DNA of 28,646 nucleotides from a virus: IMG/VR virus record IMGVR_UViG_3300025674_000275, positions 1-28,646 of that record; one strand, 5' to 3'. Position numbers and translations under genes: made by a program. The stretch's first letter is position 1. The number at the start of each line of letters is the position of its first letter. This document shows positions 7,303 through 25,936 of this stretch, one piece after another. Under the pieces are notes generated by a model. The model worked only from the letters and a program-made list of their open reading frames with translations, ran no database searches and had not been told where the DNA came from.

Positions 7303-10300
7303 TCAATTATTCAGTAAAGAATTAACTTTTTCTTCCAGTGAAGATAATCTTTCTTTGAGTTCTTGGTTTTCGACATCAAGTTCTTTGATTGCATTAACAA
7401 GAACAGGAAGTAAGTACTCATGAGTAACACCCCACTTATCTATGTTAGATTTTGATGCAATGATTGTTTCATCACCTTCAAGTTCTGCAACCTCTTGAGC
7501 ACTGAATCCATATCTGACTCTTTCATCAGTAACCTCATTCGTTTCTCTATTCTTAAATGAATATTTGATAGGATTAATATTCTGTAAGAATCCTCTTCCA
7601 TGAGGTACATCACCATAAACACACTTATCTCTAATATCAGAAATAACTGTCCATGCTACTTGTATTGCGGCACATGAATGATCTGCATTACCCATAACAA
7701 TACAATTGCTACTTGTCGTCAGATTAATCAATCCTGATGGAAAAAATCCACCAAATCCAGATGTTTGTCCAGCATTATAACCAAACGCAATATTATTACT
7801 ACCTGTTGAATTATTGCATCCTGCACTCTTACCTAAGAAGGTATTATAATTTCCAGTGGTGTTGTTCCATCCTGCACTAGAACCAATGAAGTTATTAAAC
7901 AATCCAGTGCAGTTGGAGAGTCCTGCCTGAAAACCAAGGAAGTTATTACTACTTCCAGTGGTGTTGTTGGATCCTGCACTAGCACCAAAGAAGTTATTAA
8001 AAGTTCCAGTGGTGTTGCATTTTCCTGCACTATTACCTAAGAAGTTATTATTATTTCCAGTGGTGTTGTTTCTTCCTGCACAATTACCAAGGAAGTTATT
8101 ATTAAATCCAGTGGTGTTGAATCTTCCTGCATAATTACCAAGGAAGTTATTATAATCACCTTCAGTAATGCTATTACCAGCATTACATCCCATAAAGATA
8201 TTAAAGCAGGCAGTTCCAGTAGAAGGATCATAAGAACCACCAGCACCACCACCGGCAATTAGGTTTCCATCTGCATCCTGCTCAAATCCAGAAGTAGGTA
8301 AGTTTATTAGATTAGATCCATCACCATAATAGAAATTAGCGGTTACAATACCGGCATTAACGATTTGAGTATTACCAGGATCAGCAGCACCTGACGGAAC
8401 AGTAGTTCCAAATCCGACATTAAAACTTGAATCTCCATTGATCCAAGTATTGGCAATAACACCAATTGCTAACTGATTACTTCCTGTGGTGTTTGGAAGT
8501 TGGACATCATAACCAAGTACAATATTACAACCTCCAGTGGTGCTGTTTCGTCCTGCATAAGTTCCTAAGAAGGTATTATTACATCCAGTGGTGTTGGAGG
8601 ATCCTGCTCTATAACCAAAGAAGTTATTACCATTTCCAATGGTGTTGTTTTGTCCTGCTCTACCACCTAAGAAATTATTACGATACCCAGTGGTGTTTGC
8701 ACATCCTGTTTGATCACCAAAGAAGTTATTATTAAATCCAGTGGTGTTGAATCTTCCTGCCAAATATCCACTGAAGTTATTAAAACTTCCAGTGGTGTTG
8801 AATTGTCCTGCACCATTACCAATGAAGTTATTTTGACTTCCAGTGGTGTTGCAGTATCCTGCATTAAGACCTAAGAAGTTATTATTACCTCCAGTGGTGT
8901 TGAGTCTTCCTGCATTAAGACCTAAGAAGTTATTATTAATTCCAGTGGTGTTGGCGAATCCTGCACAATTACCAAAGAAGTTATTATTACCTCCAGTGGT
9001 GTTATTGACTCCTGCCCTATTACCTAAGAAGTTATTACAACTTCCAGTGGTGTTGGAGAATCCTGCACATAAACCAAAGAAGTTATTATAAGTTCCAGAA
9101 CCAGAAGCACACTTACCAGCATAAGTTCCTAAGAAGTTATTATGTTCTCCAGTGACCGTTGCACAACGACCGGCACCACGACCAATCATATTGTTAGATG
9201 ATCCAGTGCCGTTGGCGAATCCTGCATAAGTTCCTAAGAAGACATTACAAGAACCAGTGGTGTTGGATCTTCCTGCTAGATCACCAAAGAAGTTATTGCG
9301 ATTTCCAGTGGTGTTGGCTCTTCCTGCATGACGACCAAAGAAGTTATTACAACTTCCAGTGGTGTTAGATGTTCCTGTATAAGAACCAAAGAAGTTATTT
9401 TCATTTCCAGTGGTGTTGCGGTATCCTGCGGAATAACCAAAGAAGTTGTTACAAGATCCAGTAGTGTTGTCTCTTCCTGCAGCAGGACCAAAGAAGTTAT
9501 TAATAGATCCAGTGGTGTTGAAGCATCCTGCACAATATCCTATGAAGTTATTATGAACTCCAGTGGTGTTGTTTCTTCCTGCACTAAAACCAAAGAAGTT
9601 ATTAAAAGTTCCAGTGGTATTGTAGTATCCTGCACATAAACCAATGAAGATATTAGAACAACCAGAACCAGAAGCACACTTACCAGCATAAGTTCCTAAG
9701 AAGTTATTATGTTCTCCAGTGACCGTTGCACAACGACCGGCACCAACACCGATCATATTGTTACAAGATCCAGTGCCGTTGGCGAATCCTGCATAAGTTC
9801 CTAAGAAGACATTACAAGAACCAGTGGTGTTGGATCTTCCTGCTAGATCACCAAAGAAGTTATTGCGATTTCCAGTGGTGTTGGCTCTTCCTGCATGACG
9901 ACCAAAGAAGTTATTACAACTTCCAGTGGTGTTAGATGTTCCTGTATAAGAACCAAAGAAGTTATTTTCATTTCCAGTGGTGTTGAGGTATCCTGCGGAA
10001 TAACCAAAAAAGTTGTTATAAGATCCAGTAGTGTTGTCTCTTCCTGCAGCAGAACCAAAGAAGTTATTAACAGATCCAGTGGTGTTGGAGCATCCTGCAC
10101 AATATCCTAAGAAGTTATTGTTACTTCCAGTGGTGTTGTTTCTTCCTGCAGTAAAACCTAAGAAGTTATTGTAACTTCCAGTGGTGTTGAGTTGTCCTGC
10201 ACAGAGACCTATGAAGTTATTGAAACCTCCAGAACCAGAAGCACACTTACCGGCATAAGTTCCTAAGAAGGTATTATGTTGTCCAGTGACCGTTGCACAA

Positions 10301-13300
10301 CGACCGGCACCAACACCGATCATATTGTTACAGGATCCAGTGGTGTTAGATAATCCTGCATTACGACCAATGAAGTTATTATTAGTTCCAGTGGTGTTGA
10401 ATCTTCCTGCTTCATTACCTAATAAGGTATTATGACTTCCAGTGGTGTTGCATCTTCCAGTTTGTTCTCCCCCAATAAAAACATTATTGGAACCATCTGT
10501 ATTAAAACTACCAGCTTCAGGACCAATAAATGTATTATTACTTCCAGTGGTGTTGCGGTATCCTGCATTACAACCAAAGAAGTTATTATTAGCACCAGAA
10601 CCAGAAGCACACTTACCGGCATAAGTTCCTAAGAAGGTATTATGTTGTCCAGTGACCGTTGCACATTGACCGGCACCACGACCGATCATATTGTTACAGG
10701 ATCCAGTGGTGTTGAAGAATCCTGCACCATTACCTAAGAAGTTATTATTACCTCCAGTGGTGTTGGATCTTCCTGCCAAATATCCACTGAAGTTATTAAA
10801 ACTTCCAGTGGTGTTGTTGGATCCTGCATAAAAACCTAAGAAGGTATTACAACTTCCAGTGGTGTTGGAGTATCCTGCTCGATGACCAAAGAAGTTATTA
10901 CCACTTCCAGTGGTGTTGTTTTGTCCTGCTGTACCACCTAAGAAATTATTATAATATCCAGTGGTGTTTGCACATCCTGTTTGATCACCAAAGAAGTTAT
11001 TATTACCTCCAGTGGTGTTGGATCTTCCTGCCAAATATCCACTGAAGTTATTAAAACTTCCAGTGGTGTTGTTGGATCCTGCAGCAGTACCTAAGAAGTT
11101 ATTATGAGATCCAGTGGTGTTGGAGAATCCTGCACCAGTACCAAAGAAGTTATTTTGACCTCCAGTGGTGTTGAAGTATCCTGCACCACAACCAATGAAG
11201 TTATTATAACCTCCAGTGGTGTTGTTTCTTCCTGCATAAGCACCTAAGAAGTTATTACAAGATCCAGTGGTGTTGTTGAATCCTGCACATAAACCAAAGA
11301 AGTTATTATTAGTACCAGAACCAGAAGCACACTTACCGGCATAAGTTCCTAAGAAGGTATTATGTTGTCCAGTGACCGTTGCAAAACGACCGGCACCAAC
11401 ACCGATCATATTGTTACAGGATCCAATGGTGTTGAATCTTCCTGCATTATTACCTAAGAAGTTATTCTGACTTCCAGTGGTGTTGCATTTTCCTGCATTA
11501 TTACCAAAGAAGTTATTATAACCTCCAGTGGTGTTTTTGAGTCCTGCACAAAGACCAAAGAAGTTATTAAAACCTCCAGTGGTGTTGTTGAATCCTGTAT
11601 AACGACCAAAGAAGTTATTATAACCTCCAGAACCAGAAGCACACTTACCGGCATAAGTTCCTAAGAAGTTATTATGTTCTCCAGTGACCGTTGCACATTG
11701 ACCGGCACCACGACCGATCATATTGTTACAGGATCCGGTGGTGTTGGAGAGTCCTGCATTAGTACCAAAGAAGTTATTATTACCTCCAGTGGTGTTGAAT
11801 CTTCCTGCTTCACGACCTAAGAAGTTATTATAAGTTCCAGTGGTGTTGTTGTATCCTGCATTACAACCAAAGAAGTTATTATGAGCACCAGAACCAGAAG
11901 CACACTTACCGGCATAAGTTCCTAAGAAGTTATTATGTTCTCCAGTGACCGTTGCACATTGACCGGCACCAACACCGATCATATTGTTACAGGATCCAGT
12001 GGTGTTGTTGAATCCTGCACATAAACCAATGAAGTTATTATTACCTCCAGAACCAGAAGCACACTTTCCAGCAAAAGTTCCTAAGAAGGTATTATGAAGT
12101 CCAGTGACCGTTGCACAACGACCGGCACCAAAACCAATCATATTGTTACAGGATCCAGTGGTGTTAGAGAGTCCTGCATTAGTACCAAAGAAGTTATTAT
12201 TACCTCCAGTGGTGTTGAGTTGTCCTGCAGCATTACCAAAGAAGTTATTCTGACTTCCAGTGGTGTTGGAGAATCCTGCGTAAGTTCCTAAGAAGTTATT
12301 ACAATTTCCGGTGGTGTTTCTGTGTCCTGTACATTTACCAATAAAAGTATTTTTAGATCCAGTGGTGTTCTCTCTTCCCGCAAAAACACCGATAAAGTTA
12401 TTATCGATTCCAGTGGTGGTGCATTGTCCTGCATAAGTTCCTAAGAAGTTATTATTACTTCCAGTGGTGTTGCATCTTCCTGCACAATTACCAAAGAAGT
12501 TATTAGAAGTTCCAGTGGTGTTGTCGAATCCTGCAAAAGCACCAAAGAAGTTATTATTAGTTCCAGTGGTGTTGGAGAATCCTGCAAAAGCACCAAAGAA
12601 GTTATTAGAAGTTCCAGTGGTGTTGCATTTTCCTGCACCATTACCTAAGAAGTTATTACAACCTCCAGTGGTGTTGCAGTATCCTGCAGCATAACCAAAG
12701 AAGTTATTAAAACCTCCAGTGGTGTTGGAGAATCCTGCACCATTACCTAAGAAGTTATTATAACCTCCAGTGGTGTTGCATTTTCCTGCACTATTACCTA
12801 AGAAGTTATTATAATCACCTTCAGTAATACTATTACCAGCATTACATCCCATAAAGATGTTAAAGCAGGCAGATCCTGTTGAAGGATCATACCCACCACC
12901 AGTCGTGGAATCACCGGCAAATATATTTCCGTCTGCGTCTTGTCTAAGTTCTTTTGCAAATGAATTAATACCAATTATATTGGAACCATCACCAACAAAT
13001 GATGCTGCTGTTACAACACCCGTTACTGTTACTCCATCGAAAGTAGGATCATCAGTTAGTGTAATAGTAGCACCAACACCAGATGAAGTTACCGTTAAAT
13101 TAGAACTGACAAAATTAATATCCCCAACACTACCTGCAGAACCAACTACAGAACCTTCTTCTCTTATAGAAATTCCAGCCAAAGCACCTACATTACCAGC
13201 AGTAAGACCAGTTATATTGGAACCATCACCAAAAAATGATGCTGCTGTTATAATTCCTGAAGCATTAATATTTCTTACAGACGTAATATCATCAAAGTTG

Positions 13301-14775
13301 GTCTCAATATTACCAACGGCAAATTTAGTTCCTGCCGACAATGATGTTGTTCCAACACCAAATGCATAGTTTGTTAACCAGGCATCAGTAGCAAGTCCAG
13401 TAAAAGAACCGGACTGAAACCACATAATCTTTTTATATGTGGTAGGAAGAGTTTCACCAGCACCGATAAGACTAATTAAAGGAGATCCTTCTGTCGATGC
13501 AACAGCAATACCACCATGATTTGCTGTGGTATCATTTGAAACATCATTTCCAACAGCATCAGTTCTAAATCCAAGAACAATATCAGAATCCGATACCTTT
13601 AATGTTTCAGTAAATAATGTAGCAGAAGTACCACCAACAGTTATGTTTCCATCAACATTTAGATCACGATTAACTTGCAAATCATTGGCAATAGTAACTG
13701 TTGTTCCAGGAAGTGTTGGATTATTTGGAAGTCCAATCGTAAGAGTTTGTCCAGAACCTACCGTTTCTATTTCATTTGCAGTTCCGGCAATCGTAAATGT
13801 TTCACTACTAAGTTCAATAGAACCAGATCCACTATCACCAGCAAAATCTAAATCTTGTTCCCTAGTTTGATCATCGACATAAGCCTTAATAGACTGTTGT
13901 GTAGCAAGAGCGTCATCACGATCTGATACTAAATCATCTTCATCAAGAATTGCAGTAATAGCAACTCCAACATTCGCAAGAGTTAAATTTGCAATTGTTG
14001 CTGCAATAGAAACATTTAAAGAATCTAAATCAGTTTGTCCATCAACATCAATGTCACCGTTAAAGTCAACATTAGAAGCAAAGGTTGAGACACCAGATAC
14101 ATTAAGATCATCTAAATCAGTTTGTCCATCAACATTTAGATCACGATTAACTTGCAAATCATTGGCAATAGTAACTGTTGTTCCAGGAAGTGTTGGATTA
14201 TTTGGAAGTCCAATCGTAAGAGTTTGTCCAGAACCTACCGTTTCTATTTCATTTGCAGTTCCGGCAATCGTAAATGTTTCACTACTAAGTTCAATAGAAC
14301 CAGATCCACTATCACCAGCAAAATCTAAATCTTGTTCCCTAGTTTGATCATCGACATAAGCCTTAATAGACTGTTGTGTAGCAAGAGCGTCATCACGATC
14401 TGATACTAAATCATCTTCATCAAGAATTGCAGTAATAGCAACTCCAACATTCGCAAGAGTTAAATTTGCAATTGTTGCTGCAATAGAAACATTTAAAGAA
14501 TCTAAATCAGTTTGTCCATCAACATCAATGTCACCGTTAAAGTCAACATTAGAAGCAAAGGTTGAGACACCAGATACATTAAGATCATCTACAATTAAAG
14601 GACCTTCAATACTTACATCACCTCTTACATCTAAATTATAATCAGCATCAAAAATTGTAGTACCAATACCGACTCTACCAACAACCTCTAATACCTTTTG
14701 GTTTTCGGTACTTCCTTCTATACCTATTTTTTGCTGATTCTGTCTACCAGAAAGAAAACGAATTTGAGATACCAT
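7303..14775 (-). CDS. Giant tail fibre with 17-aa repeat arrays and S74 chaperone domain
   Basis: A 2490-aa fibre. Residues 1-60 are a short head (VSQIRFLSGRQNQQKIGIE). Two perfect 159-aa repeats follow (about 62-376), built of LNVSGVSTFASNVDFNGDID-type segments, then GDGSNI-type shaft modules. About residues 635-2100 hold some 85 copies of a 17-aa unit NNFFGxxAGxxNTTGxx; a break at about 2100-2180 (AGIVTANFYYGDGSNLINLP) is followed by about 8 more copies to 2330. The C-terminus from about 2375 is an intramolecular chaperone of the Peptidase S74 type: SDIRDK (conserved S-D-x-R-x-K, expected autocleavage site), RYGFSAQEVAEL, LLPVLVNAIKELD and a terminal coiled coil. The chaperone trimerises the fibre and is normally cut off. 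It is probably the receptor-binding or side fibre. The repeat region is unusually long. Confidence 0.9.
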   Translation of the reverse strand: MVSQIRFLSGRQNQQKIGIEGSTENQKVLEVVGRVGIGTTIFDADYNLDVRGDVSIEGPLIVDDLNVSGVSTFASNVDFNGDIDVDGQTDLDSLNVSIAATIANLTLANVGVAITAILDEDDLVSDRDDALATQQSIKAYVDDQTREQDLDFAGDSGSGSIELSSETFTIAGTANEIETVGSGQTLTIGLPNNPTLPGTTVTIANDLQVNRDLNVDGQTDLDDLNVSGVSTFASNVDFNGDIDVDGQTDLDSLNVSIAATIANLTLANVGVAITAILDEDDLVSDRDDALATQQSIKAYVDDQTREQDLDFAGDSGSGSIELSSETFTIAGTANEIETVGSGQTLTIGLPNNPTLPGTTVTIANDLQVNRDLNVDGNITVGGTSATLFTETLKVSDSDIVLGFRTDAVGNDVSNDTTANHGGIAVASTEGSPLISLIGAGETLPTTYKKIMWFQSGSFTGLATDAWLTNYAFGVGTTSLSAGTKFAVGNIETNFDDITSVRNINASGIITAASFFGDGSNITGLTAGNVGALAGISIREEGSVVGSAGSVGDINFVSSNLTVTSSGVGATITLTDDPTFDGVTVTGVVTAASFVGDGSNIIGINSFAKELRQDADGNIFAGDSTTGGGYDPSTGSACFNIFMGCNAGNSITEGDYNNFLGNSAGKCNTTGGYNNFLGNGAGFSNTTGGFNNFFGYAAGYCNTTGGCNNFLGNGAGKCNTTGTSNNFFGAFAGFSNTTGTNNNFFGAFAGFDNTTGTSNNFFGNCAGRCNTTGSNNNFLGTYAGQCTTTGIDNNFIGVFAGRENTTGSKNTFIGKCTGHRNTTGNCNNFLGTYAGFSNTTGSQNNFFGNAAGQLNTTGGNNNFFGTNAGLSNTTGSCNNMIGFGAGRCATVTGLHNTFLGTFAGKCASGSGGNNNFIGLCAGFNNTTGSCNNMIGVGAGQCATVTGEHNNFLGTYAGKCASGSGAHNNFFGCNAGYNNTTGTYNNFLGREAGRFNTTGGNNNFFGTNAGLSNTTGSCNNMIGRGAGQCATVTGEHNNFLGTYAGKCASGSGGYNNFFGRYTGFNNTTGGFNNFFGLCAGLKNTTGGYNNFFGNNAGKCNTTGSQNNFLGNNAGRFNTIGSCNNMIGVGAGRFATVTGQHNTFLGTYAGKCASGSGTNNNFFGLCAGFNNTTGSCNNFLGAYAGRNNTTGGYNNFIGCGAGYFNTTGGQNNFFGTGAGFSNTTGSHNNFLGTAAGSNNTTGSFNNFSGYLAGRSNTTGGNNNFFGDQTGCANTTGYYNNFLGGTAGQNNTTGSGNNFFGHRAGYSNTTGSCNTFLGFYAGSNNTTGSFNNFSGYLAGRSNTTGGNNNFLGNGAGFFNTTGSCNNMIGRGAGQCATVTGQHNTFLGTYAGKCASGSGANNNFFGCNAGYRNTTGSNNTFIGPEAGSFNTDGSNNVFIGGEQTGRCNTTGSHNTLLGNEAGRFNTTGTNNNFIGRNAGLSNTTGSCNNMIGVGAGRCATVTGQHNTFLGTYAGKCASGSGGFNNFIGLCAGQLNTTGSYNNFLGFTAGRNNTTGSNNNFLGYCAGCSNTTGSVNNFFGSAAGRDNTTGSYNNFFGYSAGYLNTTGNENNFFGSYTGTSNTTGSCNNFFGRHAGRANTTGNRNNFFGDLAGRSNTTGSCNVFLGTYAGFANGTGSCNNMIGVGAGRCATVTGEHNNFLGTYAGKCASGSGCSNIFIGLCAGYYNTTGTFNNFFGFSAGRNNTTGVHNNFIGYCAGCFNTTGSINNFFGPAAGRDNTTGSCNNFFGYSAGYRNTTGNENNFFGSYTGTSNTTGSCNNFFGRHAGRANTTGNRNNFFGDLAGRSNTTGSCNVFLGTYAGFANGTGSSNNMIGRGAGRCATVTGEHNNFLGTYAGKCASGSGTYNNFFGLCAGFSNTTGSCNNFLGNRAGVNNTTGGNNNFFGNCAGFANTTGINNNFLGLNAGRLNTTGGNNNFLGLNAGYCNTTGSQNNFIGNGAGQFNTTGSFNNFSGYLAGRFNTTGFNNNFFGDQTGCANTTGYRNNFLGGRAGQNNTIGNGNNFFGYRAGSSNTTGCNNTFLGTYAGRNSTTGGCNIVLGYDVQLPNTTGSNQLAIGVIANTWINGDSSFNVGFGTTVPSGAADPGNTQIVNAGIVTANFYYGDGSNLINLPTSGFEQDADGNLIAGGGAGGSYDPSTGTACFNIFMGCNAGNSITEGDYNNFLGNYAGRFNTTGFNNNFLGNCAGRNNTTGNNNNFLGNSAGKCNTTGTFNNFFGASAGSNNTTGSSNNFLGFQAGLSNCTGLFNNFIGSSAGWNNTTGNYNTFLGKSAGCNNSTGSNNIAFGYNAGQTSGFGGFFPSGLINLTTSSNCIVMGNADHSCAAIQVAWTVISDIRDKCVYGDVPHGRGFLQNINPIKYSFKNRETNEVTDERVRYGFSAQEVAELEGDETIIASKSNIDKWGVTHEYLLPVLVNAIKELDVENQELKERLSSLEEKVNSLLNN
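7760..8210 (-). repeat. Short second array of the 51-bp fibre repeat
   Basis: About eight 51-bp units, each with the framework CCAGTGGTGTTG ... CCTGCA ... AAGAAGTTATT on the plus strand. It is headed by the same cap module as the main array (ACFNIFMGCNAGNSITEGDY). Confidence 0.85.
8480..12840 (-). repeat. Main array of about 85 fibre repeats, 51 bp each
   Basis: Uninterrupted 51-bp units (54 bp for two variant types) coding NNFFGxxAGxxNTTGxx. Eight times a paired variant appears: NNMIGxGAGxCATVTG followed by NFLGTYAGKCASGSG. Framework bases are almost invariant even at third codon positions, while three dinucleotide-codon slots vary. Confidence 0.9.
9200..9985 (-). repeat. Internal block duplication, 567-bp period
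   Basis: Bases 9200-9418 are identical to 9767-9985 (219 bp), and similarity extends on both sides from about 9100/9667 to 9530/10097. The period of 567 bp equals 189 residues (eleven repeat units). Confidence 0.85.
13648..14591 (-). repeat. Perfect tandem duplication, 467 bp in a 477-bp period
   Basis: Bases 13648-14114 and 14125-14591 are identical by eye along their whole length. The period is 159 codons, so the reading frame is kept. Confidence 0.9.
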
Positions 14776-21645: not shown

Positions 21646-21674
21646 AGTATACAATAAAAAACCACCCCAGTCAA
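21646..21674 (-). promoter_or_regulatory. Early promoter fused to terminator (module 2), before purC
   Basis: TTGACT (21674-21669), 17-base spacer, TATACT (21651-21646). The spacer contains the 3' arm and T-run of the terminator of the previous gene. Confidence 0.72.
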
Positions 21675-21702
21675 GGAGTGCTGTGACGGTTGTGGAAGTG
21701 GT
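21656..21702 (-). terminator. Terminator after the 87-aa gene
   Basis: Outer stem ACCAC/GTGGT (21702-21698 with 21665-21661), extended by wobble pairs, inner stem GTCA/TGAC, then a run of six T. It overlaps the purC promoter. Confidence 0.6.
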
Positions 21703-21965
21703 CAGTCATTCATTTTCCCGTTAATAATTTCGTAATAATCTGGGGAAGGACGTTTACCATTCTTCCATACAGATTGTGTTGGATCTCTTCCAGTTAGATT
21801 ATAAGGGTCAACACCTTCGGGCATTGGTTTATCCCAGTCATCTATCTCACTGATAGATTTGACAAGATCAATAATAGTTGCATTCTTATCTTTGTTATTT
21901 ACAAACACATCGTCCCACCAATCTGCAATTACATCGTAAAGTTTTTGTTCGTATTCAGTCATCAT
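21702..21965 (-). CDS. Hypothetical protein, 87 aa
   Basis: A small acidic protein: YEQKLYDVIADWWDDVFVNN near the N-terminus, then a loop-rich C-terminal half with DPYNLTGRDPTQSVWKNGKR. No family is recognised. Two consecutive ATG codons are possible starts (21965 and 21962); GGAG lies four and seven bases upstream respectively, favouring the second slightly. Both overlap the end of the 137-aa gene, so the pair is coupled. The stop is at the base of the terminator hairpin. Confidence 0.7.
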   Translation of the reverse strand: MMTEYEQKLYDVIADWWDDVFVNNKDKNATIIDLVKSISEIDDWDKPMPEGVDPYNLTGRDPTQSVWKNGKRPSPDYYEIINGKMND

Positions 21966-22375
21966 ACTACTCCATTAGCACTATCTTCAACTGTACCCAT
22001 AGTACCTTTTTTACTATTCATCAGACGCTCAACCTCAGCATCACGAATCTTCCATTCCTCAAACTTCTTGTCAAGGTCTTCATCCATGGTGAGTTCATAC
22101 TCTTTACAGATCTTACGCTGCTCTTCTTCACTTATCCAGTCATTGAAGACTAATGACATAGCACCAGTATAAATGCTCTTGGGAGACATGCCCACACAGA
22201 GCATGAACTTCTCAAATAATTTGAAGTATTGATTGGCATTGAGATCACCAGCAGGAGCAGTGATCAGGTAATGCTCTTCGGGGATGGAATCACTATCAAC
22301 AGTAGAACCAAACCCACTATCATAGGTGGGCGTGTAGGTAGCGTCGAATTTGAACTGGACGGTGGCTTCGTACAT
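21962..22375 (-). CDS. Conserved phage hypothetical protein, 137 aa
   Basis: Starts MYEATVQFKFDATYTPTYDS and contains a well-structured middle (HYLITAPAGDLNANQYFKLF, about 35-54), then a charged helix (SEEEQRKICKEYELTMDEDL, about 83-102). From memory, a protein with this ITAPAGDLNxxQYFxLFxKFxLCxG pattern is conserved in T4-like cyanophages, function unknown. It follows the consensus promoter at 22403-22431, whose expected start point lies just before the ATG, giving a leader of roughly 20 nt with no strong Shine-Dalgarno. Confidence 0.75.
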   Translation of the reverse strand: MYEATVQFKFDATYTPTYDSGFGSTVDSDSIPEEHYLITAPAGDLNANQYFKLFEKFMLCVGMSPKSIYTGAMSLVFNDWISEEEQRKICKEYELTMDEDLDKKFEEWKIRDAEVERLMNSKKGTMGTVEDSANGVV

Positions 22376-22377
22376 TG

Positions 22378-22476
22378 TCAGAGATTTGAATCAATGAGAG
22401 TATTATACAATAAAAAAGTACCCCTGTCAAGGAGTGCTGTGACAGTTGTGGAAGTGGATGGATACATATAAGTCAT
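22378..22476 (-). pseudogene. Truncated eighth copy of the Gly/Tyr-rich gene
   Basis: It begins exactly like the complete copies (MTYMYP, with the same Shine-Dalgarno and TAA-A-ATG junction at 22474-22480), but after six codons runs directly into the intergenic terminator/promoter sequence and reads a 32-aa frame ending DSNL. The fusion point is near 22458. It is probably a remnant left when the tandem array expanded or contracted; expression as a 32-aa peptide is possible. Confidence 0.7.
22403..22431 (-). promoter_or_regulatory. Consensus sigma70 promoter (module 3)
   Basis: A perfect TTGACA (22431-22426), 17-base spacer, TATAAT (22408-22403) on the minus strand, upstream of the 137-aa and 87-aa genes. 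The -35 forms one arm of a CTGTCA/TGACAG stem. Confidence 0.85.
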
Positions 22477-22477
22477 T

Positions 22478-22747
22478 TTATCGTCTCCTGGTTCTTGTGG
22501 TGATTGTACCATGACCATTACCGGAATCAGAACCGTAACCGAAACCGGAACCGTAACCGTAACCGTAACCGCCACCGGAACCGTAACCGAAACCGTAACC
22601 GTCACCATAACCGTCACCGTTACCATCACCGTAACCGCAACCGTAACCGTAACCGGAACCGTAACCGAAAACGTCACCGAAACCGAAACCGTAACCGTCA
22701 CCGTAACCGCAACCGTCACTGTAACCTACTGGATACATATAAGTCAT
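22478..22747 (-). CDS. Gly/Tyr-rich repeat protein, tandem copy 7 (89 aa)
   Basis: Fixed head MTYMYPVG and fixed tail GTITTRTRRR flank about 70 residues of alternating Gly and Tyr/Ser/Asp/Phe/Asn/Cys, coded by GGT-NNC hexamers. This copy is the only one with two in-line Cys (GCGYG twice) and carries one break from strict alternation (GDVFG, GGT changed to GTT). It is translated one base after the stop of copy 6 from an AGGAG site inside that gene's last codons. The protein is probably disordered or forms an extended glycine-rich structure; function unknown. Confidence 0.75.
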   Translation of the reverse strand: MTYMYPVGYSDGCGYGDGYGFGFGDVFGYGSGYGYGCGYGDGNGDGYGDGYGFGYGSGGGYGYGYGSGFGYGSDSGNGHGTITTRTRRR

Positions 22748-22748
22748 T

Positions 22749-23054
22749 TTATCGTCTCCTGGTTCTTGTGGTGATTGTACCATAACCGTAACCGGAACCG
22801 TCACCGTCACTGTAACCGTTACCGTAACCGTAACCGGAACCGTAACCGGAACCAGAACCGTAACCGTGACCATAACCGTAACCGGAACCGTCACCGTAAA
22901 CGTAACCGTAACCGTGACCATAACCGTTACCGGAACCGTCACCGAAACCGTCACTGTAACCGTAACCGTAACCGTCACCGAAACCGTCACCGTAACCGTA
23001 ACCGTAACCGGAACCGGAACCGGAACCGTTACCTACTGGATACATATAAGTCAT
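22749..23054 (-). CDS. Gly/Tyr-rich repeat protein, tandem copy 6 (101 aa)
   Basis: Same head and tail as its neighbours. The repeat core starts with a Ser run (GNGSGSGSGYG) and includes His (YGHGYG twice) and one GGT-to-GTT change (GYVYG). Start at 23054, one base after the stop of copy 5, with AGGAG eight bases upstream. Core composition differs from every other copy although the ends are nearly identical in DNA. Confidence 0.75.
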   Translation of the reverse strand: MTYMYPVGNGSGSGSGYGYGYGDGFGDGYGYGYSDGFGDGSGNGYGHGYGYVYGDGSGYGYGHGYGSGSGYGSGYGYGNGYSDGDGSGYGYGTITTRTRRR

Positions 23055-23055
23055 T

Positions 23056-23343
23056 TTATCGTCTCCTGGTTCTTGTGGTGATTGTACCATAACCGTAACC
23101 GGAACCGTCACCGTCACCGTAACCGTCACCGGAACCGTCACCGTCACTGTAACCGTAACCGTTACCGTAACCGGAACCGTTACCGTAACCGGAACCGTAA
23201 CCGTAACCGGAACCGTCACCGTAACCGTAACCGTAACAGGAACCGTCACCGTAACCGTAACCGTAACCGGAACCGTCACGGTAACCGTCACCGAAACCGT
23301 CACCGTCACCGTAACCGGAACCTACTGGATACATATAAGTCAT
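23056..23343 (-). CDS. Gly/Tyr-rich repeat protein, tandem copy 5 (95 aa)
   Basis: Head MTYMYPVG, tail GTITTRTRRR. The core is Asp-rich (GDGDGFGDG and GDGSGDGYGDGDG) with a single Arg (GYRDG, GGT changed to CGT) and a single Cys. Coupled to copy 4 by a one-base gap. The codon pattern is GGT alternating with a codon ending in C almost throughout. Confidence 0.75.
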   Translation of the reverse strand: MTYMYPVGSGYGDGDGFGDGYRDGSGYGYGYGDGSCYGYGYGDGSGYGYGSGYGNGSGYGNGYGYSDGDGSGDGYGDGDGSGYGYGTITTRTRRR

Positions 23344-23344
23344 T

Positions 23345-23704
23345 TTATCGTCTCCTGGTTCTTGTGGTGATTGTTCCTGAACCGGAACCGTAACCGGAAC
23401 CGTCACCGTAACCGGAACCGTAACCGTAACCGTAACCGCCACCGTTACCGTTACCGTAACCGGAACCGTCACCGTAACCGGAACCGTAACCGTAACCGTA
23501 ACCGCCACCGTAACCGTAACCGCCACCGTTACCGTTACCGTCACCGAAACCGGAACCGTCACCGAAACCGGAACCGTAACCGTAACCGTAACCGCCACCG
23601 GAACTGTAACCGGAACTGTAACCGCCACCGGAACCGTAACCGTCACCGTAACCGAAACCGTGACCGTAACCGTAACCGGAACCTACTGGATACTGATGAG
23701 TCAT
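23345..23704 (-). CDS. Gly/Tyr-rich repeat protein, tandem copy 4 (119 aa, longest)
   Basis: Head reads MTHQYPVG rather than MTYMYPVG. The core contains GGGY and SSGYSSGGGY segments and two near-identical internal blocks (GGGYGYGYGSG followed by FGDGSG or YGDGSG), showing expansion by block duplication. Tail GSGTITTRTRRR. Start at 23704, one base after the stop of copy 3. Confidence 0.75.
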   Translation of the reverse strand: MTHQYPVGSGYGYGHGFGYGDGYGSGGGYSSGYSSGGGYGYGYGSGFGDGSGFGDGNGNGGGYGYGGGYGYGYGSGYGDGSGYGNGNGGGYGYGYGSGYGDGSGYGSGSGTITTRTRRR

Positions 23705-23705
23705 C

Positions 23706-23987
23706 TTATCGTCTCCTGGTTCTTGTGGTGATTGTACCATAACCGGAACCGGAACCGTAACCGTAACCGTCACCGAAACCGAAACCGGAACCGTAACCGT
23801 CACCGTAACCGTAACCGGAACCGTCATCGTAACCGGAACCGTCACCGAAACCGTCACCGGAACCGTAACCGTAACCGTAACCGTCACCGTAACCGTAACC
23901 GGAACCGTCATCGTAACCGGAACCGTCACCGAAACCGTCACCGGAACCGTAACCGTAACCGTTACCTACTGGGTACATAAAAGTCAT
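23706..23987 (-). CDS. Gly/Tyr-rich repeat protein, tandem copy 3 (93 aa)
   Basis: Head MTFMYPVG. The core holds a clear internal tandem duplication of about 28 residues (GYGSGDGFGDGSGYDDGSGY present twice). The upstream junction uses AGGAGG as its ribosome site. Tail GTITTRTRRR. Confidence 0.75.
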   Translation of the reverse strand: MTFMYPVGNGYGYGSGDGFGDGSGYDDGSGYGYGDGYGYGYGSGDGFGDGSGYDDGSGYGYGDGYGSGFGFGDGYGYGSGSGYGTITTRTRRR

Positions 23988-23988
23988 T

Positions 23989-24222
23989 TTATCTCCTCCT
24001 GGTTCTTGTGGTGATTGTATCGTAACCTTCACCGGAACCGTAACCGCCACCGTAACCGTAACCGCCACCGGAACCGTAACCGTCACCGAAACCGTAACCG
24101 TCACCGTCACTGTAACCGTAACCGGAACCGTAACCGTAACCGGAACCTTTACCGTCACCGAAACCGTCACCGAAACCGTAACCGGAACCGTAACCGGAAC
24201 CTACTGGATACATAAAAGTCAT
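23989..24222 (-). CDS. Gly/Tyr-rich repeat protein, tandem copy 2 (77 aa)
   Basis: Head MTFMYPVG, tail YDTITTRTRRR. The core contains one Lys (DGKGSG) and ends GGGYGYGGGYGSGEGYD, identical in wording to the end of copy 1, so copies 1 and 2 are the closest pair. AGGAGG lies eight to nine bases before the ATG, within copy 1's terminal Arg codons. Confidence 0.75.
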   Translation of the reverse strand: MTFMYPVGSGYGSGYGFGDGFGDGKGSGYGYGSGYGYSDGDGYGFGDGYGSGGGYGYGGGYGSGEGYDTITTRTRRR

Positions 24223-24223
24223 T

Positions 24224-24451
24224 TTATCTCCTCCTGGTTCTTGTGGTGATTGTATCGTAACCTTCACCGGAACCGTAACCGCCACCGTAACCGTAACCGC
24301 CACCGGAACCGGAACCGTCACCGTAACCGTAACCGTCACCATCACCGTCACCGGAACCGGAACCGTCACCGAAACCGTAACCGTAACCGTTACCGGAACC
24401 GTAACCGAAACCGTAACCGGAACCGGAACCTACTGGGTAGGTATAGTTCAT
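24224..24451 (-). CDS. Gly/Tyr-rich repeat protein, tandem copy 1 (75 aa)
   Basis: First gene of the array. Its ATG overlaps the stop of the 113-aa gene (TGATG), so the whole array is coupled to that gene and its promoter. The head is MNYTYPVG, the most different of the set. The core is rich in GSG/GDG; the tail YDTITTRTRRR is shared with copy 2. No known domain; I recall short GYG/GDG/GSG-repeat proteins in other phages next to similar partner genes, but their role is not established. Confidence 0.75.
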   Translation of the reverse strand: MNYTYPVGSGSGYGFGYGSGNGYGYGFGDGSGSGDGDGDGYGYGDGSGSGGGYGYGGGYGSGEGYDTITTRTRRR

Positions 24452-24792
24452 CACTTACCCCAAGATTCAGTCACAGGGACAGTGAAAATAACAGATCCAG
24501 AAGGAACTTTGACTGGATAATCACACTCCTTAAGGGTCACTTTATTTGACGTTGGATCCTTGAGAACTCCAGTGAAACCAATGCTTTCCCAACGGAAAAC
24601 ATGGACGGCATTGGAAATAGTCAGTTCACCAGTAACTTCACATGTAGTAACGTTACCAGCAAAGATCCATCCTCGGTCAATCACCACAACGGCACGATTG
24701 CCAACTGGAGTACTACTAATTCCAACTGAATCAGCAGGGACATAGGTAATACCATTCACTTCAATGGAACCAAGGTTAGCAGAGATAGACAT
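24451..24792 (-). CDS. Conserved phage protein with RGWIFAG core, 113 aa
   Basis: The protein starts MSISANLGSIEVNGITYVPA and contains VVVIDRGWIFAGNV (about 35-48) followed by LTISNAVHVFRWESIGFTGV (about 57-76). The motif RGWIFAGD followed by a short linker and AxxVxxWxxxG is common in small proteins of unrelated phages (I think annotated DUF6948); the fold is probably a small beta domain and the function unknown. It has its own promoter (24820-24848) and leads the Gly/Tyr-rich array, which begins by stop/start overlap. This suggests that it and the array work together or are simply co-expressed. Confidence 0.75.
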   Translation of the reverse strand: MSISANLGSIEVNGITYVPADSVGISSTPVGNRAVVVIDRGWIFAGNVTTCEVTGELTISNAVHVFRWESIGFTGVLKDPTSNKVTLKECDYPVKVPSGSVIFTVPVTESWGK

Positions 24793-24819: not shown

Positions 24820-24848
24820 AGTATAGGATGAAATGGCGAGACCGTCAA
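24820..24848 (-). promoter_or_regulatory. Early promoter (module 4) for the array operon
   Basis: TTGACG (24848-24843), 17-base spacer, TATACT (24825-24820). It retains the shared upstream block found in modules 2 and 3 but has lost the terminator T-run. Confidence 0.72.
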
Positions 24849-24876
24849 GGAGTGCTGTGACAGTTGTGGAAGTGGT

Positions 24877-25907: not shown

Positions 25908-25936
25908 ATTATACAATAAAAAACCACCCCAGTCAA
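25908..25936 (-). promoter_or_regulatory. Early promoter (module 6)
   Basis: TTGACT (25936-25931), 17-base spacer identical to modules 2 and 5, TATAAT (25913-25908). The T-run is present, but the matching upstream hairpin arm is not clear. Confidence 0.72.

Follow-up and report, generated by a model that had tools for sequence, protein, structure and literature searches.

Why would a cyanophage carry seven small genes for glycine- and tyrosine-rich proteins, with almost the same ends and different cores, one directly behind the other? The locus that raises this question lies in the viral record IMGVR_UViG_3300025674_000275, of which we analysed a stretch of 28,646 nucleotides (nt), hereafter called the window. 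It runs from 24451 to 22378 on the minus strand. We refer to the repeated gene as GX, a (Gly-X)n gene, and to the gene of 113 amino acids (aa) upstream of the array as NB. The window virus is a T4-type Synechococcus phage, whose 28.6-kilobase (kb) record carries purM, purC, transaldolase, plastocyanin-like and tail-fibre genes; the array has metabolic genes as neighbours and the tail-fibre genes are a few kb off. Its closest named relative is Llyrvirus S-SKS1, in which no GX array was found at the syntenic position. Searches of IMG/VR, one genome per GTDB species, INPHARED and open PMC papers revealed that the array is one half, amplified, of a conserved two-gene phage module. The other half, NB, is an obligate upstream partner that had been missed when the locus was first described from its letters (the sequence-only reading).

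The module is apparent from the pairing of the two genes. NB (24451-24792, minus strand) directly precedes the array and is coupled to it, its stop codon overlapping the start of the first GX gene by one base (TGATG). A search seeded with NB gave eleven viral contigs with GC contents of 0.40 to 0.55, all with an adjoining GX gene, and a profile scan extended the family to 343 relatives. When loci were fetched by NB alone and with enough DNA (75 loci), GX was directly downstream in 69 by automatic scoring and in 74 on reading, L075 being the sole locus without it. A separate scan with DUF6948 proper, a domain to which NB is remotely related (see below), gave 532 relatives, and in 75 of the 80 fetched loci GX was located at most 200 nt from the DUF6948 gene. 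Open reading frames (ORFs) of similar size from the same loci, used as control, had GX behind them in 16 of 4170 cases. For the reverse test, 64 GX ORFs were fetched by DNA pattern; 50 had NB directly upstream, 5 had another GX, and in several of the other nine NB lies at a somewhat greater distance. In L145 (4963-5622) a single ORF fuses a DUF6948-type domain in frame with a (Gly-X)n tail. That the pairing is real is near certain.

The pair is present in the named phages Rheinheimera Barba, Eggerthella PMBT5, Iodobacter PhiPLPE and Pectobacterium Ymer, as well as in Rhodobacter RcapNL and Chlorobiaceae CV-1-33 phages. GX has been overlooked because BLAST filters mask it and annotators miss, misframe or misname it: in named phages it is unannotated, called 'adsorption protein' (PMBT5; L024, 2800-3126), or apparently annotated in another frame. 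The label 'adsorption protein' and 'lamprin', the latter given to GX in a metagenome-assembled phage (L241, 2749-3063), are apparently low-complexity misannotations. In phage CV-1-33 (L240, 2798-3043), an annotated coding sequence with MAMAMALA repeats appears to be GX read in a different frame. The GTDB genomes contributed four loci, three in bacterial metagenome-assembled genomes with a clear GX gene and one in such a genome from Coriobacteriaceae, where the contig ends just after NB. A tblastn search of phage records with GX or NB from the window gave no match, owing to low-complexity masking of GX and the divergence of NB; with a more distant NB as query (L023), phage matches were retrieved. 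Pseudomonas phage Ka3 was rejected as a carrier, the weak match falling on an unrelated protein without GX. In open PMC papers we found neither a description of the NB-GX pair nor a mention of DUF6948, though unpublished or subscription work may have more on DUF6948; the module is widespread and apparently undescribed.

NB itself gave no match to the Pfam model for DUF6948 (PF22253), a phage domain of unknown function. NB represents a WIFAGNV/WESIGF-type subfamily, and an iterated profile joins it to three further subfamilies, with 192 ORFs joined at E ≤ 1e-4. Two of these three (iii and iv) match DUF6948 with scores of 110, 82 and 57 bits at a cut-off of 27. The iterated profile and the shared GX partner place NB as a remote member of the DUF6948 superfamily, and a BFVD search with the predicted NB structure also matched DUF6948-named proteins. 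Both kinds of gene stand directly ahead of GX, but the X residues of the partner differ, being Ser, Tyr and Asp with DUF6948 and Tyr, Asn and Asp with NB. With DUF6948 proper, Ser accounts for 40-43% of X and Asn for 1-2%, as compared to 6-8% Ser and 18-23% Asn with subfamilies i and ii, and this dependence also holds within one GC band. A composition that follows the NB subfamily fits co-adaptation of the two proteins; shared ancestry could also explain it. A domain of unknown function gains a concrete partner, since across hundreds of phage contigs DUF6948 almost always directly precedes GX.

The architecture of the array is largely as first described. On the minus strand, seven complete genes and a remnant follow one another head to tail: gene 1 (24224-24451, 75 aa), gene 2 (23989-24222, 77 aa), gene 3 (23706-23987, 93 aa, with an internal duplication), gene 4 (23345-23704, 119 aa), gene 5 (23056-23343, 95 aa), gene 6 (22749-23054, 101 aa), gene 7 (22478-22747, 89 aa) and the remnant (22378-22476). 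In the cores, Gly alternates with Tyr, Ser, Asp, Phe or Asn, and 480 of 530 steps follow the Gly/non-Gly alternation (mean 267 and maximum 306 in 2000 within-gene codon shuffles); GGT-NNC makes up 235 of the 265 core hexamers. The ends are almost fixed, with the head M[TN][YFH][MTQ]YPVG and the tail TITTRTRRR, the latter identical in all seven genes. The pattern in which a tail is followed by a restart occurs seven times (22472-22501, 22743-22772, 23050-23079, 23339-23368, 23700-23729, 23983-24012 and 24218-24247, minus strand) and was absent from 100 shuffles. A start one base past the preceding stop (TAA-A/G-ATG), claimed for every gene, holds for genes 2-7 and the remnant but not for gene 1, which overlaps the NB stop.

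The fixed tail also serves translation. Its codons ACC-AGG-AGG-AGA or ACC-AGG-AGA-CGA provide a Shine-Dalgarno site, with AGGAGG(AGA) or AGGAGA(CGA) directly ahead of the next ATG. The same codons thus encode the tail and double as the ribosome site of the following gene. The Arg tail is not merely a by-product of this embedded site, since some lineages keep the Arg residues by using CGN codons. Genes 1 and 2 have an exact core block of 58 nt in common. As the longest shared blocks partly exceed those of hexamer shuffles (58 nt versus a maximum of 46), gene conversion within the array is shown for these two genes only. The remnant consists of a head alone (MTYMYP, 22459-22476) that continues directly into a promoter-like element. 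The same junction recurs in L006 and L007, which indicates that it is old.

The repeat encodes a narrow set of residues. In 103 GX genes, X is Tyr in 43%, Asp in 23%, Asn in 14.5% and Ser in 14% of positions. Lys, Glu, Gln and Arg hardly occur, and His, though one transition away from Tyr, amounts to 0.8% of X. Of 2746 NAY codons 28 encode His, and NAR codons number 11. The alternation is broken in only 308 of 7278 steps. Lineages write this residue pattern with different hexamers (GGT-NNC, GGC-NAC, GGC-NAT), which points to selection on the protein and disfavours a role of the repeat at the DNA level. For gene 4, AlphaFold2 returned a predicted local distance difference test score (pLDDT) of 30 and no structure, in agreement with the earlier suggestion that GX is disordered, and we predict the same for the family. 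Similarities to TrAA12 (PF22807; 20.4 bits for window GX 5 and 18.5-23.6 bits in relatives, with a cut-off of 30.9), NF033849 and phrog_18306 were dismissed as composition matches. Some GX proteins, encoded by ORFs in L197, L135 and L142, have a further N-terminal domain of 50-60 residues ahead of the repeat, and the core in L261 has an out-of-frame stretch (RVRVRV) between normal Gly-X parts, possibly a natural frame slip or a sequencing error.

The expectation that GX changes by hexamers without losing frame was borne out by Rheinheimera phages isolated on one host strain from the Baltic Sea. Their GX alleles encode 69, 71, 79 and 83 aa and differ by +6, +30 and +42 nt. Two +6-nt alleles, with the insertion at different places, and one rearranged allele have identical flanks over 1,191 bases, the isolates differing only inside GX; among Rheinheimera isolates hexamer indels outnumber point changes. 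Like in-frame microsatellite (contingency) loci, GX thus undergoes coding repeat-unit indels between near-isogenic isolates. Unlike such loci, it has a 6-nt unit that never turns the gene off, and it keeps its heads, tails and residue types. The changes observed were hexamer indels and swaps. These alleles provide a natural length series for studying the evolution of low-complexity proteins.

Copy number varies as well. Contig L007 matches the window at 98.3% identity across 4.2 kb. Its gene 6 core is identical, but the next gene has 23 aa where gene 7 of the window has 89. L015/L008, partly syntenic to the window, has at least four complete GX genes with other cores, while in eight contigs with identical flanks the six complete GX copies are invariant. 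As the sequence-only reading had supposed, GX elsewhere is mostly a single copy (68 of the 75 NB loci). Further arrays are found in L016 (6 genes), L168 (at least 4), L126 (3) and L156 (2). Heads and tails are particular to each array, which implies that amplification occurred more than once. The independent array in L168 (1681-2727 and beyond) has heads LRSSMGLKAFLKF and tails EPNLTSAGATVVEE, and an inserted gene separates it from NB. A search with the tail pattern gave six contigs, four of which (L006, L009, L010, L011) terminate within the GX array; assembly thus fails at this locus, and reported copy numbers are too low.

To what function might the module be put? The predicted structure of NB offers a lead toward nucleic-acid biology. 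The AlphaFold2 model, computed for the monomer and based on 49 homologues, has a pLDDT of 86.5 and a predicted template-modelling score (pTM) of 0.70. The 50 best Foldseek matches listed from the PDB are almost all Sm/LSm chains; the best of those listed has an E-value of 1.2e-3 and a probability of 1.00, and template-modelling scores to the target reach 0.75. On this fold evidence, NB is predicted to adopt an Sm/LSm-like barrel. Two of its segments, VVVIDRGWIFAGNV...ISNAV and the terminal PSGSVIFTVPV, resemble the Sm1 and Sm2 motifs, and hhalign aligns both in register, though not at a significant score. An Sm-like protein from a marine metagenome (PDB 3by7) shares the predicted fold class, but the match is modest (E 6e-3 to 8e-3) and this protein has no known GX partner; a cyanophage origin has reportedly been proposed for it.

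As the best explanation of the locus as a whole, we tentatively propose, as something not quite an even bet, that NB and GX form a coupled early module directed at nucleic acid, in which an Sm-like NB is provided with a low-complexity tail in trans. NB, a protein of about 100 aa from the DUF6948 superfamily, would assemble into an Sm-type ring or surface with affinity for nucleic acid, most likely RNA, or for a nucleoprotein. GX would act as its tail, either adjusting this binding or giving rise to a sticky condensate, and the translationally coupled proteins would probably be produced at an early stage of infection and cooperate within the cell. While the pairing, coupling, fusion, co-varying composition, genomic setting and hexamer variation are observed, an Sm-like function, nucleic-acid binding, contact between NB and GX and a condensate are inferences. 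In this cyanophage lineage, amplification to seven genes could have increased tail dose and variety, with hexamer slippage and recombination continuing to alter GX length. A precedent is Hfq of Acinetobacter baumannii, where shortening of the GGFGGQ-repeat tail alters RNA affinity (PMC11617691). Both systems would combine an Sm-type domain, in NB by prediction, with a disordered acidic Gly-rich part. In Hfq these form one polypeptide, whereas here they are encoded by separate coupled genes, apart from the natural fusion in L145; moreover, the GX repeat is a strict (G-X)n and NB has no detectable sequence homology to Hfq. A wider version is doubtful at this stage. In it, a split Sm-like ribonucleoprotein system would be common among phages, made up of an Sm-type protein and separate tunable (Gly-X)n tails that form an early nucleic-acid condensate, and some cyanophages would have expanded the tails into an array. 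If the Sm-like reading is true, the pair would be a phage-encoded Sm/low-complexity system comparable to cellular systems that build RNA granules.

Several observations weigh against this proposal. The hhalign scores of NB are not significant (E 0.039 with archaeal Sm, 0.2 with Hfq and 0.23 with an unrelated control), although with the same thin profiles a true Sm versus Hfq comparison gives only E 0.003. Pfam LSM (PF01423) and Hfq (PF17209) had no match in the window. In view of both results, NB is called Sm-like by predicted fold and not a member by sequence. The Foldseek E-values are above 0.001, and NB shows no evident canonical Sm residues for RNA binding. With a median net charge of -6, GX is on average an acidic protein, which disfavours direct RNA binding by GX. 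Finally, the early timing is suggested indirectly, by neighbouring genes and promoter-like sequence.

These neighbours, examined in 85 scanned ORFs, include helicases, primases, DNA polymerases, RecE, Erf, DNA methyltransferases and one homologue of the inhibitor Acb3 of the cyclic-oligonucleotide-based anti-phage signalling system (CBASS). The latter is encoded at 245-1066 in L033, about two kb upstream of the GX module. In named phages the pair is located beside SSB, Erf, RecE, DnaC or a CI-like repressor. Such a setting argues for an early intracellular role and would also suit the main rival explanation, an anti-defence module, in which NB, alone or paired with GX, would inhibit or sequester a defence signal, nuclease or effector of the host at the start of infection, and changes in GX would serve to escape recognition or to adjust dose. 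The methyltransferases and Acb3 are genes of anti-restriction type, and counter-defence proteins are typically small, widespread, fast-diverging and early. However, the location is unspecific because helicases, polymerases, primases and recombinases are common neighbours as well, and the Foldseek matches listed are Sm/LSm chains, with no counter-defence protein among them. We regard this explanation as unlikely, yet as a serious contender.

Another proposal, that the locus is a diversity-generating store in which repeat change itself is selected, is compatible with an Sm-like NB carrying GX tails in trans. The variation it predicts was indeed seen: GX differs between isolates with identical flanks, gene 7 is replaced in L007, and arrays occur in several lineages. 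That variation is the purpose is unproven and in our view rather improbable, as most relatives have one copy, the six complete copies in the eight-contig group are unvaried, and slippage under weak length constraint may be all that the variation reflects.

The adhesive role also suggested for GX fared worse. Gly/Tyr-rich repeats do resemble structural and adhesive proteins, and a virion-associated adhesive or coat protein might seem to be supported by the labels 'adsorption protein' and 'lamprin', if these did not look like low-complexity matches. However, replication, recombination and methylase neighbours and the sigma-70-like promoter-like elements of the window argue against a virion protein and a tail adhesin, and none of the 25 most frequent neighbour families is a virion family. 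Mass spectrometry of PMBT5 identified six virion proteins, GX not among them (PMC9394477), a weak test because of the low titre and a GX core without Lys and Arg. We therefore consider this role very improbable. Least probable of all is a neutral or selfish microsatellite in which hexamer slippage sustains a functionless GX, since the very low complexity, the excess of hexamer indels in Rheinheimera phages and the frame-slipped core in L261 stand against near-universal pairing with NB across subfamilies, X confined to Tyr, Asp, Asn and Ser with few phase breaks, conserved heads and tails with CGN-encoded Arg in some lineages, and a composition that follows the NB subfamily.

The promoter-like elements, which are sequence matches only, flank the module on the minus strand. 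One (TTGACG-17 base pairs (bp)-TATACT, 24820-24848) is located just before the NB start codon and could drive the operon; a second (TTGACA-17 bp-TATAAT, 22402-22430) follows the array and precedes the next gene (21962-22375). A conserved upstream box of 26 nt, CACTTCCACAACTGTCACAGCACTCC, is joined to the -35 element at three places in the window (21670-21700, 22426-22456 and 24844-24874), with none expected in 100 shuffles. The box-bearing elements (TTGACN-17-TATANT) thus span 21646-21700, 22402-22456 and 24820-24874, while TTGACT-17-TATAAT at 25908-25936 (minus strand) is without the box, which may bind an activator. An Rfam search of the window gave no match. A second repeat-driven gene of the window (7303-14775, minus strand) encodes a virion/tail protein of 2490 aa with roughly a hundred repeats NTTGxxNNFxGxxAG of about 15 residues each and a duplicated N-terminal block.

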